Shown piece after piece: positions 1 through 3,141 of a DNA stretch of 23,801 nt. Below the pieces are notes generated by a model. It had not been told where the DNA came from. It searched no databases and saw only the letters and a program-made list of their open reading frames with translations. Numbering within the stretch: position 1 is the first letter of the stretch; each line of letters begins with the position of its first letter. The translations under genes were made by a program, and so were the position numbers. The stretch is from a virus: IMG/VR virus record IMGVR_UViG_3300007609_000090, positions 1 through 23,801 of that record, one strand, 5' to 3'.

Positions 1-87
1 CAAAAAGCAGTTAAGTTAGCGTATCATATTAAGTGTTGCATCTTTGCAACACTGTTACAGATCTTTAAGAAAAAGGTTGACAAATAG
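1..87 (+). CDS. C-terminal fragment of a possible upstream ORF (partial)
   Basis: Frame 1 is open from the first base to a TAG at 85-87 (28 codons, ending K-K-K-V-D-K). The other two plus frames hit stops within the first 20 bases. The fragment is too short to identify. Its end overlaps the -35 box of the tmRNA promoter, a compact arrangement also seen before gp32. A 9-bp hairpin at 32-53 lies inside it. Twenty-eight open codons can occur by chance, so confidence is low. Confidence 0.3.
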   Translation, partial: QKAVKLAYHIKCCIFATLLQIFKKKVDK

Positions 88-105
88 CAAGTAATGTATT
101 ATATA
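77..105 (+). promoter_or_regulatory. sigma70-like promoter for the tmRNA
   Basis: A perfect -35 box TTGACA (77-82) is followed by a 17-base spacer and a TATATA -10 box (100-105) in a T/A-rich stretch. The predicted start near 112 sits just before the first tmRNA helix (GTTGAA-GCAA-TTCAAC, 117-132). This points to transcription by unmodified host polymerase, early in infection (inference). The 11-mer GGTTGACAAAT around the -35 box recurs upstream of gp32 at 2123-2133. Confidence 0.6.
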
Positions 106-174
106 TAGACTGTAACGTTGAAGCAATTCAACAACATATACTGGACTCGGGGGCGGTACCCGACGACTCCACCA

Positions 175-251
175 TGGATACATAAGTGGCTTTGGCAAGC
201 TTAAATGTGGATGAAACCGTATGCTGGACGTGCAGCTTGTGTATCTTTGAT
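175..251 (+). other. tmRNA intervening segment (removed during maturation)
   Basis: This lies between the encoded ACCA and the GGGG start of the coding piece. GATACATAAG (177-186) and CTTGTGTATC (236-245) form a 10-bp stem with one G:U pair. It would stack near the acceptor stem in the precursor, as expected for a permuted pre-tmRNA whose loop is excised by host RNases such as RNase P at the 5' side. The interior shows no ORF. Confidence 0.75.
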
Positions 252-336
252 GGGGTCGAAACAGGATTGACAGGTATGTGAGGAGAGTGGAGTTACCGGG
301 ATGTAAGCGCCGTTACCGCGAACAAACACAATAGAT

Positions 337-381
337 GCAAACAGCAACTATGCTCTTAAGGATCTTGCTCTAGCAGCTTGA
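337..381 (+). other. tmRNA tag reading frame, peptide ANSNYALKDLALAA
   Basis: After TAGAT (compare TAGTC before the E. coli resume codon) comes GCA, then AAC AGC AAC TAT and so on to TGA at 379-381. This encodes 14 residues, A-N-S-N-Y-A-L-K-D-L-A-L-A-A, added after the tRNA-borne alanine. The C-terminal L-A-A matches the ClpXP-recognised end of ssrA tags. The A-N-S-N start resembles the A-N-D-N of alphaproteobacterial tags, not the longer cyanobacterial type ending A-P-V-A-A. The resume position is inferred by alignment to the E. coli context. Confidence 0.88.
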
Positions 382-498
382 TTACTGTGGGTCCGGTAGA
401 ACCTAGAAACAGAATCTGCCCGTCATGACCCTCGCGTTATTGGGTTTCGGGTATGGGCTCCACCCTCAACGGGCCCACATTCAACAGCGGAGCACTAC

Positions 499-1119
499 AT
501 GGAAGATCATCAAGCTTGGAAAAAGTATCCTGAATATCGTAAATGGTTCAACAAGCTTTATGTCTCGGAGCTCCTAGGGCATGACAGTGGTCCCTGTGGT
601 GTAGCTCCAAATAAAGATGGTTACTATATCATCAGACCCGTTTACAACCTCTCTGGGATGAGTGTAGGTGCTTCAAAAGCATTCATTAAAGCAGGAGATG
701 TTACAAAGGTTCCACCAGGTTATTTTTGGTGTGAGTGGTTTGAAGGTGATCATTACTCAGCATCATTTAAATGGGTCGATCAAGTAGGTTGGAAACTTGA
801 TAGCTGTTGGATCGGCAATAAGCTAGATTTTAGATTTAAGAGTTGGAAAAGAAGTAGCTATGCTCCGCCGGTACCGGATAAGCTCATGGAACTTTCCAAT
901 CTTCCGATAGTCAATATTGAATTTATCGGCGATAAAGTAATCGAAGTGCATTTAAGAGATACACCCGATCCTGATTATGACGAGCTCATCCCAATATTTG
1001 AGGATGACGCAATGAAAATGGTTGACATTTACGAGAGTATGGGTTATAGTTATATTGAAAGCTTTGATGACGCTGACGGTTTCATCGAATCAGCAAGAAT
1101 TGGATTTATGGTAAAATGA
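499..1119 (+). CDS. conserved phage protein, possible ATP-grasp fold
   Basis: The protein has 206 residues. GGAG at 489-492 sits 6 bases before the ATG, immediately after the tmRNA, so the gene is probably co-transcribed with it. I know similar sequences from T4-like marine phages only as hypothetical proteins. Features hinting at an ATP-grasp ligase-like fold are an R-P pair (46-47) before a glycine loop G-M-S-V-G-A (53-58), an acidic C-E-W-F-E-G-D-H segment (78-85), and a late V-N-I-E-F ... I-E-V-H-L-R strand pair (138-153), which resembles the metal-binding end of such enzymes. No substrate can be named. It overlaps the next frame by ATGA. The ATP-grasp idea is inference; that it is a real gene is well supported by spacing and composition. 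Confidence 0.8.
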   Translation: MEDHQAWKKYPEYRKWFNKLYVSELLGHDSGPCGVAPNKDGYYIIRPVYNLSGMSVGASKAFIKAGDVTKVPPGYFWCEWFEGDHYSASFKWVDQVGWKLDSCWIGNKLDFRFKSWKRSSYAPPVPDKLMELSNLPIVNIEFIGDKVIEVHLRDTPDPDYDELIPIFEDDAMKMVDIYESMGYSYIESFDDADGFIESARIGFMVK

Positions 1120-1130
1120 GGACATGCAAC

Positions 1131-1331
1131 ATGCTTATTTCGACGTATTTTAAAGAAGACACAAACGGTGCTCGTGCTGAAGTACATCATACAAACGAGG
1201 GATATATGATCGAGTACTACGATATGAGTGGTAACTTTATGAAATCAGAAACACATCATGGAAAGTCTCTACAGTGGGCAGAATCGACAGCTGAAAACTG
1301 GGCGCTGGGAATTAAGAAACTCAATGGATAA
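1131..1331 (+). CDS. small conserved T4-like phage protein, function unknown
   Basis: The protein has 66 residues from ATG 1131. An upstream ATG at 1116 overlaps the previous stop, but AGGA at 1119-1122 lies 8 bases before 1131, so the second start is preferred. The C-terminal half, with A-E-N-W-A-L-G-I-K-K-L-N-G, matches my memory of a small protein found beside gp33/gp59/gp32 in T4-like cyanophages. There is no membrane segment or known catalytic motif. It overlaps the gp33 start by 8 bases, suggesting translational coupling. The function is unknown; the position suggests a role in middle-to-late replication or transcription. Confidence 0.75.
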   Translation: MLISTYFKEDTNGARAEVHHTNEGYMIEYYDMSGNFMKSETHHGKSLQWAESTAENWALGIKKLNG

Positions 1332-1554
1332 AGTAGAAGATCTTAAAGCAGAAGAAATACTGAAAGAGGTCAGTCCATGGGTTAATGATGAAGTTACTCT
1401 TATGGATGCTCTCGTTCACTATGCTGACAAGCATGAAATTGAAATTGAACTCATCGGAGATATTGTTAAGCGTTCACCTATTCTTAAATCAAAAATACGT
1501 GAAGATGCTGAACGTCTTCGAATGATGGAAAAAACGGCACGGCTACCGGTATGA
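1324..1554 (+). CDS. gp33: gp33-like late transcription co-activator
   Basis: The protein has 76 residues from ATG 1324. A longer start at 1258 would overlap the previous gene by 74 bases and adds an unrelated leader. In T4, gp33 bridges RNA polymerase and the gp45 sliding clamp so that gp55-programmed polymerase fires TATAAATA promoters. Evidence is the acidic, helical small protein, the core V-T-L-M-D-A-L-V-H-Y-A-D with a following E-I-E-I-E-L-I segment as in cyanophage gp33 proteins, and the position directly before gp59 and gp32. It is shorter than T4 gp33 (112 residues). Exact TATAAATA boxes elsewhere in the window fit its presence. The stop overlaps the gp59 start (ATGA). The assignment rests partly on synteny. 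Confidence 0.7.
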   Translation: MDKVEDLKAEEILKEVSPWVNDEVTLMDALVHYADKHEIEIELIGDIVKRSPILKSKIREDAERLRMMEKTARLPV

Positions 1555-2150
1555 CAAAGCTCTATAGTACTCGAGATGCTTATGACATCTATGTATACTA
1601 CTTAGCACTCAAACGTCACTTCACATCAAACTATGATTTCTTTAAGTACAACGGCAAGGTTAAAGCCAATGTACAAAGCTTTGAGAATCGTAAAGACAAA
1701 TTCTTTTTCTATAAGCTTTCAAAGAAATCAGAAGCAAAGGAGCTTATCCTTGCTAATATGATCGTTGAACCCTCGATGTGGATCGGTGATATGCTTGAAG
1801 AGAAAGCACACCAAAACTACGTTGCTCGGGCTAAACGTATACAGGCTCTCACGTATATTTTTAAGCGTGAGTTAGGAGAGTTGAATGATAACTTCGACTC
1901 GAATATCATTGTGGATGATGGACAACATCCGCACTTGCTTACGTTGTATATGCAAGAAAAAATCAGTCCGGAAACCCTTGTGATACTTGATGATTTGACG
2001 AAATGTTTTATCTATTGGGACAAAAGAATTCATGAAAAGATCGTTTTTCCCGCTATAAATAGTTTCGTGCTGAATTATAAGCCATTTCTAGAGTATGACA
2101 AAGATAAGATGAGGAAAATAGTGGTTGACAAATTTAAGCATGCAAGTTAA
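1551..2150 (+). CDS. gp59: gp59 helicase loader
   Basis: The protein has 199 residues (T4 gp59: 217). gp59 binds fork DNA and gp32 and loads the gp41 replicative helicase. Visible family features are the N-terminal Y-D-I-Y-V-Y-Y-L-A-L-K-R-H with Y-D-F-F-K-Y-N (matching Y-D-V-I-K-Y-N in T4), then R-K-D-K-F-F-F-Y-K-L-S (T4: R-R-D-K-Y-F-F-Q-K-L-S), then I-L-A-N-M-I-V with W-I-G-D (T4: F-I-S-N-L-V with W-I-G-D). The C-terminal half is helical, with I-S-P-E-T-L-V-I-L-D-D matching T4 I-S-F-E-T-F-I-L-L-D-S. It starts by ATGA overlap with gp33. Its 3' end carries candidate promoter elements for gp32. Confidence 0.93.
   Translation: MTKLYSTRDAYDIYVYYLALKRHFTSNYDFFKYNGKVKANVQSFENRKDKFFFYKLSKKSEAKELILANMIVEPSMWIGDMLEEKAHQNYVARAKRIQALTYIFKRELGELNDNFDSNIIVDDGQHPHLLTLYMQEKISPETLVILDDLTKCFIYWDKRIHEKIVFPAINSFVLNYKPFLEYDKDKMRKIVVDKFKHAS
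2054..2061 (+). promoter_or_regulatory. candidate late promoter box TATAAATA upstream of gp32
   Basis: An exact match to the T4 late -10 element inside the gp59 coding region, 148 bases before the gp32 start. T4 gene 32 is itself served by more than one promoter. About two chance copies are expected in a window of this size and composition, so support is weak. Confidence 0.3.
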
Positions 2151-2208: not shown

Positions 2209-3141
2209 ATGCCTAGTTCTTTTTCCGCTCTAAAACAAGCTCGCTCTAAAGAGTTTGATAAGCTCAATTCCCAACTACAATCAATGAACTCTTCACGTCC
2301 AGGTGGCGATGATGGTTATTGGAAACTCGAAGTCGATAAAGTCGGCAACGGTTATGCTGTACTTCGTTTTCTTCCCGCACCTCCAGGCGAAGACATGCCA
2401 TTTGTTCGCGTGTGGGATCACGGTTTCCAAGGTCCCGGTGGTTGGTACATTGAAAACTCTCTTACCACTATTGGAGAAGATGACCCCGTTTCTGAGTATA
2501 ACGGCAAGCTTTGGAATTCCGGTGTCGAGTCGGATAAGGACATTGCACGTAAACAAAAGCGTCGTCTTGGTTTCCATGCTAATGTCTATGTTGTTAAAGA
2601 TCCTGCAAATCCTCAAAACGAAGGTAAGGTCTTTAAATATAAGTTTGGTAAGAAAATCTTCGATAAGCTCAATGATATGATGAATCCTCAGTTTGAGGAT
2701 GAAGAAGCTGTTAATCCGTTTGACTTCTGGGAAGGTGCAGATTTTAAACTGAAAGCACGTAACGTTGAAGGTTATCGTAACTATGATAAGTCAGAGTTTT
2801 CTCCTATTGCTCCGATCTCTAAGCCTGATGGTTCTGAGATGAGTGATGAGGAGATGGAGGCCATTTGGAACTCCCAAAATTCTCTGCAAAGCATCGTCGA
2901 TCCTAAAAACTTCAAGTCGTACAATGAACTCAAAGCTAAGCTTTACAAAGTTCTGGCGCTTGACGGTGGTAATCACGCACCCACTAATACCGCCGAGGAT
3001 GACGAGCCGGAGATGGACTTTACACCAAGGTTCAAGGAAAGCGCGCCTAGTGCGATGGATGAGACTCCATCTCCGGCACTTAGTTCAACAGACGATGATG
3101 ACGATGATATGTCGTTCTTCAAGGGTCTGACTGACGACTAA
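2209..3141 (+). CDS. gp32: gp32 single-stranded DNA-binding protein
   Basis: The protein has 310 residues (T4: 301). It coats single-stranded DNA at the fork and organises helicase loader, polymerase and recombination proteins. Features in order: a basic N-terminal self-association segment with Q-A-R-S-K-E (10-15); an OB-type core with W-D-H-G-F (T4: V-N-H-G-F), G-G-W-Y-I-E, V-V-K-D-P-A-N-P-Q-N-E-G-K-V-F-K-Y-K-F-G-K-K-I-F-D-K (very close to T4), F-W-E-G-A-D-F-K-L-K and Y-R-N-Y-D-K-S-E-F; then an acidic C-terminal tail with a run of Asp before M-S-F-F. The region that holds the zinc-binding Cys residues in T4 reads E-N-S-L-T-T-I-G, and no cysteine is present in the whole protein, so the zinc site is absent. 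It has its own leader and terminator. Confidence 0.97.
   Translation: MPSSFSALKQARSKEFDKLNSQLQSMNSSRPGGDDGYWKLEVDKVGNGYAVLRFLPAPPGEDMPFVRVWDHGFQGPGGWYIENSLTTIGEDDPVSEYNGKLWNSGVESDKDIARKQKRRLGFHANVYVVKDPANPQNEGKVFKYKFGKKIFDKLNDMMNPQFEDEEAVNPFDFWEGADFKLKARNVEGYRNYDKSEFSPIAPISKPDGSEMSDEEMEAIWNSQNSLQSIVDPKNFKSYNELKAKLYKVLALDGGNHAPTNTAEDDEPEMDFTPRFKESAPSAMDETPSPALSSTDDDDDDMSFFKGLTDD

Follow-up and report, generated by a model that had tools for sequence, protein, structure and literature searches.

A circularly permuted tmRNA gene at a conserved locus of uncultured T4-like phages

Introduction

In this article, we describe a complete circularly permuted (two-piece) tmRNA gene of the alphaproteobacterial type, which occupies positions 112 to ~424 of a 23.8-kb IMG/VR virus contig (IMGVR_UViG_3300007609_000090, analyzed over its full 23,801 nucleotides and hereafter called the window). 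The best explanation, and one that we hold to be very probable, is that this is a functional gene of a T4-like phage serving ribosome rescue, a standing component of the locus in which it lies and one that has probably been exchanged between phages. The preliminary description of this DNA had taken a permuted tmRNA in such a phage to be undescribed; however, this kind of gene is already known, since a two-piece alpha-type tmRNA was published in 2022 for Melnitz, a T4-like myophage of an OM43 host, along with dozens of other phage cases (53 two-piece tmRNAs in 18,146 phage genomes; PMC9004378), and Rfam models cover the form. What is added here beyond the 2022 work is a conserved locus in many uncultured phages and the complete difference between the window's tmRNA and the copy carried by its sister phage. 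Phage-borne ribosome rescue would then not be confined to one isolate, but would extend to a large uncultured T4-like clade whose members keep the two-piece tmRNA at a fixed locus but not its partner SmpB, and what a phage gains from a tmRNA becomes a testable question in the cultured relatives HTVC008M and Melnitz.

The contig and its probable host

The contig had been called T4-like from its letters, and comparison with PHROGs agrees, identifying T4-type proteins (gp33, gp59, gp32, gp2, gp4, tail tube, gp48, gp53, gp5, gp25 and gp6) and further baseplate-wedge homologues. By gp59 and gp6, the closest isolates are the Sinorhizobium phages phiM12, phiN3 and phiM7 (44%), and the Caulobacter phage Cr30 is near by gp6; since these are the nearest isolates, the window phage probably has an alphaproteobacterial host. 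Among them, a permuted tmRNA was not found in phiM12, phiN3 or Cr30, and the gene is therefore dispensable outside the window's clade.

Anatomy and detection of the gene

In the window, the 3' strand of the acceptor stem and the encoded ACCA stand 5' of the 5' strand, and the two strands pair at 7/7 positions (Table 1). The permuted order, the 7-bp acceptor with a G:U third pair and the ACCA, as first proposed, are exact to the base on direct reading, and the P2, T-stem, D-analogue and tag frame claimed alongside them were all located (for P2, the outer helix and the T-stem, the pairings come from the sequence and from the alignments to the models). The third acceptor pair, G254:U168, is the equivalent of the AlaRS-type G3:U70 and, together with the discriminator A171 and the encoded CCA (172-174), provides the determinants for alanylation. 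The covariance-model search that had been suggested as a check gave a full-length match to Rfam alpha_tmRNA (RF01849) at window 73-423 with 118 bits and E 5.4e-32 (cut-off 50), also recovered in a separate single-genome search with the same model, and a full-length match to tmRNA_permuted (RF04321) with 105.5 bits and E 5.6e-20 (cut-off 47), and ARAGORN independently calls a permuted tmRNA with the tag ANSNYALKDLALAA.

Chance pairing of the acceptor strands is ruled out by these Rfam matches, by a fold of the acceptor plus intervening segment that lies 4.9 standard deviations below shuffles (z -4.9; 0/200 shuffles equal it) and by dinucleotide shuffling of window 1-600, which gave no tmRNA call in 1000 randomized sequences. 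The intervening segment between acceptor piece and coding piece would be the part excised from the precursor, as its closing helix suggests. Directly upstream lies a candidate sigma-70-like promoter that falls within the promoter-like leader opening the alpha_tmRNA match; the assignment is weak, as the -10 element has 4/6 positions and a consensus scan did not list the site. At the other end, the preliminary description had carried the feature to 485, which is too distal, as the alpha_tmRNA model stops at 423 and other phage tmRNAs match up to 414-420, supporting a 3' end at about 417-424.

Table 1. Features of the tmRNA gene and its downstream neighbors in the window
Feature	Position	Strand	Evidence and remarks
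Sigma-70-like promoter, directly upstream	77-105	+	TTGACA 77-82, 17 nt, TATATA 100-105; weak assignment
Acceptor piece (tRNA-like 3' part)	112-174	+	RF04321, RF01849, ARAGORN, direct pairing
Outer P2 strand	112-116	+	outer helix GUAAC/GUUAC with 292-296
GCAA-capped hairpin	117-132	+	
P2 strand	134-143	+	134-139 and 141-143 pair with 271-279; A140 bulged
T-arm	147-163	+	T-stem UCGGG/CCCGA, 147-151/159-163
Acceptor 3' strand CGACTCC	164-170	+	
ACCA	171-174	+	
Intervening segment, 77 nt	175-251	+	12-bp closing helix 176-187/235-246 adjoins acceptor stem
Acceptor 5' strand GGGGTCG	252-258	+	direct pairing
D-analogue AAACAGGATTGAC, P2 5' strand (271-279), outer P2 (292-296), pseudoknot region, pre-resume	259-336	+	RF01849 and RF04321 alignments
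Tag frame ANSNYALKDLALAA, resume codon GCA, stop TGA	337-381	+	ARAGORN
Coding-piece 3' domain CCGGTAGAACCTAGAAACAGAATC...	382-424	+	RF01849 match ends at 423; mature 3' end approximate
Spacer and probable leader of next gene, hairpin GGGCUC/GGGCCC (~456-477)	425-498	+	hairpin fold; sister identity from 450
orf1, function-unassigned phage protein	499-1119	+	phrog_3577
orf2, small conserved gp33 neighbor in relatives	1116-1331	+	
gp33-like late transcription coactivator	1324-1554	+	phrog_25387, E 6e-16
gp59-like helicase loader	1551-2150	+	phrog_269, E 7e-49
gp32-like single-strand DNA-binding protein	2209-3141	+	phrog_224, E 4e-115

A conserved gp33-gp59-gp32 locus

Relatives of the window were gathered with its gp59 and gp32 proteins and not with the RNA, and the locus count was made over the 20 distinct contigs whose gp59 is 50% or more identical to the window's and whose upstream sequence extends for 3.5 kb or more. 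A same-strand permuted tmRNA lies upstream of gp33-gp59-gp32 in 18/20 of these (a strict scan for motif and pairing gives 16, and ARAGORN adds L159 and L163), whereas the relatives L138 and L178 lack the gene. The strict scan found no tmRNA on the opposite strand. All 255 parsed permuted tmRNAs pair at 7/7 acceptor positions (the filter demanded at least 6). Across the neighbor-anchored phage set, the third acceptor pair is G-U without exception, whereas positions 4-7 of the acceptor stem and the opening pairs of the T-stem switch type and stay paired, leaving aside one sequence whose T-stem could not be parsed. Moreover, 94-95% of distinct phage intervening segments are closed by a helix of 6 bp or more, as compared to 20-24% of shuffles (94% versus 24% for the 33 distinct segments of the neighbor-anchored set). 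Because the stems covary, the G-U third pair is fixed and the closing helices exceed shuffles, we conclude from sequence comparison that selection keeps the tmRNAs of this set folded.

The tags stay open in the relatives and differ widely from phage to phage; among the 23 distinct tags of the neighbor-anchored set, all end in AA and 20 end in LAA, with the qualification that ARAGORN itself may favor AA-ending tags. Unusually long predicted tags of 29-31 amino acids were seen in four phage tmRNAs (L077, L104, L109 and L112). SmpB was absent from 28/28 phage records searched, in a comparison where control genomes gave clear matches; a phage-encoded SmpB was accordingly rejected, and the protein would have to come from the host.

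Ancestry

The window tmRNA was compared with alphaproteobacterial ssrA genes (a class-wide set, SAR11 and Rhodobacteraceae) over ~195 aligned columns. Its closest relatives are viral, namely L072 (74%) and L027 and L026 (73% each), with nrdA/nrdB-like T4-like genes recognized by eye from translations in L072 and L027, whereas the best bacterial ssrA reaches 61%, the best from Rhodobacteraceae 56% and the best from SAR11 54%. Both FastTree and a careful IQ-TREE analysis place the window tmRNA in all-phage groups (of 7, 9 and 11 rows, with support of 98/89, 97/93 and 95/89), so the phylogeny proposed as a check against bacterial ssrA puts it inside an all-phage group and not with a host; an AU test did not reject a single clade of all bacterial tmRNAs separate from the phages (p 0.22). 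The preliminary description had read the gene as captured from a host with a two-piece tmRNA, and this stands solely as ancestry of type, since the nearest sequences are phage tmRNAs and the trees are all-phage: comparison of the sequences and models places the ancestry in the alphaproteobacterial type, from which recent host capture does not follow, and recent capture from SAR11 or Rhodobacteraceae in particular is unsupported at best identities of 54% and 56%.

The same evidence bears on whether the gene is merely a passively captured and decaying copy of a host ssrA, left by imprecise excision or recombination, for example, and functionless in the phage. Such decay would fit both a tmRNA score of 105, against roughly 120-165 for most bacterial alpha ssrA genes, and the missing gene in L138 and L178; yet all elements are intact, the locus is kept across divergent phages, the stems covary and the nearest relatives are phage rather than bacterial genes, making this reading extremely improbable.

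A mismatch between sister phages

The sister contigs L130/L131 are close to the window in gp59 (92% identical), gp32 (90%) and orf1 (79%), and carry in the same place a tmRNA, with the tag ANINAEPVALAA, that is 50% identical to the window's. This value compares with a background of unrelated phage tmRNAs averaging 57% (5-95% range, 47-72%). In all other pairs with gp59 at 90-97%, the tmRNAs are 78-100% identical. DNA similarity to the sister restarts sharply at window 450, at 81% nucleotide identity, just 3' of the tmRNA. Since the stretch ~450-485 is common to the sister and the tmRNA is not, this stretch is probably the next gene's leader and not a part of the tmRNA. Within this leader (window 450-498; L130 4899-4950), the hairpin reads GGGCUC/GGGCCC in the window and GAGCUC/GGGCUC in L130, with one compensatory change.

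On the basis of the contrast in identity and the abrupt break at ~420-450, and not of a tree test, we propose that the whole tmRNA gene was probably replaced in place in one of the two sister lineages. Very fast divergence of a single gene of the locus, in the absence of any replacement, keeps some weight because an AU test (216 columns) does not reject the window and L130 as one tmRNA clade (p 0.31), and the L130 tmRNA also sits on a long branch; this is nevertheless unlikely, given that 50% is the background for unrelated phages when the same gp59 distance elsewhere keeps 78-100%, that alignment returns abruptly at 81% from window 450 and that the window tmRNA shares 74% identity with tmRNAs from other phages. 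With replacement as the preferred reading, the mismatch between window and sister suggests that the tmRNA, and hence the tag, is exchanged between phages, and such exchange would perhaps fit the tag or the tmRNA to the SmpB, AlaRS or proteases of the host. A broader proposition, which draws belief and doubt from us in about equal measure, is that the permuted tmRNA of marine T4-like phages is a resident but interchangeable cassette at gp33-gp59-gp32 that may be swapped whole with promoter and tag, forms a phage lineage apart from host ssrA and has an enlarged segment that can house small protein genes in some relatives.

Relation to known two-piece tmRNAs

Melnitz resembles the window in being a T4-like marine myophage with an alphaproteobacterial-type permuted tmRNA and in having its ssrA 5' of the transcription coactivator and 3' of an early-type promoter, but differs in a glutamine riboswitch predicted within the ssrA 3' domain (PMC9004378). 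No glnA-type riboswitch matched the window at E <= 1 (the search began at base 1) and none reached the gathering score in 18 related phage loci; a riboswitch-controlled ssrA of the Melnitz type was thus set aside for the window for want of a glnA-type match at E <= 1. The Pelagibacter (SAR11) phage HTVC008M (NC_020484, identical to L403) carries an unannotated permuted tmRNA at 145161-145370 and shares with the window the order tmRNA, two small ORFs, gp33 and gp59 (gp59 lying across the origin of the record), but its RNA is 54% identical to the window's and its tag is ANFNEYALAA. The alphaproteobacterial ssrA genes modeled by RF01849 and RF04321 have the same permutation and the same tRNA-like domain, as the full-length matches indicate, whereas the window's tmRNA is of phage type in sequence, reaching no more than 61% identity with any sampled bacterial gene, and has a longer intervening segment.

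Alpha-type permuted tmRNAs are also found in the alphaproteobacterial phages DSS3P8, vB_RpoS-V10, RcXuper and RcRudolph, which infect Roseobacter or Rhodobacter and which, unlike the window, do not have the gene beside gp33-gp59-gp32, with 3/4 having it in a tRNA gene region. These four genes are unannotated (L002-L005; KT870145, MH015255, OP186293 and OP009285, respectively), and the one in RcRudolph overlaps an annotated hypothetical protein. In DSS3P8 (L002), a GOLLD RNA (RF02032; 1345-1778), scoring at the cut-off, lies ~160 nt upstream of the tmRNA beside tRNA genes.

Proposed function

Two-piece tmRNA is established for Caulobacter (Keiler 2000, cited in PMC9004378). Enzymes of tRNA processing cut the precursor, and the RNA then receives alanine and works together with SmpB. 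During T4 infection, the DNA and mRNA of the host are degraded. By analogy, the window gene would give a single precursor transcript from which host tRNA-processing enzymes remove the 77-nt segment; the resulting acceptor and coding RNAs would stay joined through the acceptor stem and P2. The host AlaRS would charge this molecule by virtue of the G3:U pair, the discriminator A and the encoded CCA, and host SmpB would deliver it wherever ribosomes have stalled on broken mRNAs, and there the tag ANSNYALKDLALAA would flag the unfinished protein for host proteases. While host mRNA and transcription are being destroyed, a phage copy of the tmRNA could in this manner recycle ribosomes for phage protein synthesis.

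Two other roles were weighed against ribosome rescue, the first being that the RNA acts as a decoy or inhibitor of the host tmRNA, blocking host rescue or SmpB. A phage without SmpB must compete for that of its host, and a precedent is cited in PMC11915505, in which the tag-less phage tmRNA of mycobacteriophage DS6A inhibits the endogenous tmRNA; however, the window has an intact tag frame, resume region and degradation-type end (ALAA), and the tags of its relatives are open, which leaves an inhibitory role very unlikely. The second, that the tag redirects proteolysis by steering stalled or host proteins toward one specific protease so that their amino acids are recycled, follows the proposal of the Melnitz authors that host proteins are selectively tagged early in infection (PMC9004378) and would agree with the wide variation of tags between phages. 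Since the tags have ends of the usual ClpXP kind and no sequence feature separates this role from plain rescue, we consider it improbable, and ribosome rescue itself remains our preferred explanation.

Genes nested in the intervening segments of relatives

Intervening segments of at least 50 nt were found in 105/156 scanned phage entries (duplicates included), as compared to bacterial segments of <50 nt in 102/105. The window's own 77-nt segment contains no ORF resembling the nested genes of its relatives, and a description of ORFs inside the intervening segments of permuted tmRNAs was not found in the open-access literature. At 12 loci (L483-L493, L504, L047 and L207), the segment encodes a small basic protein of KRGYNKR type (M..RIKM..GDEFDALSKKAKNYYHWKPGERKKIKRGYNKRLRK), which is free-standing in 61 other viral loci and whose close copies mostly show dS greater than dN (L493/L504: dN 0.07, dS 0.67). 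Membrane proteins are encoded in others: in L214 (2960-3312; the same contig as L557), an ORF of at least 95 amino acids for a holin-like membrane protein, 13 relatives of which stand free on other viral contigs, fills the 352-nt segment and enters the 5' acceptor strand, L084 has a 96-amino-acid membrane protein within a 322-nt segment, and the segments of L083 and L033 share a 45-amino-acid membrane peptide.
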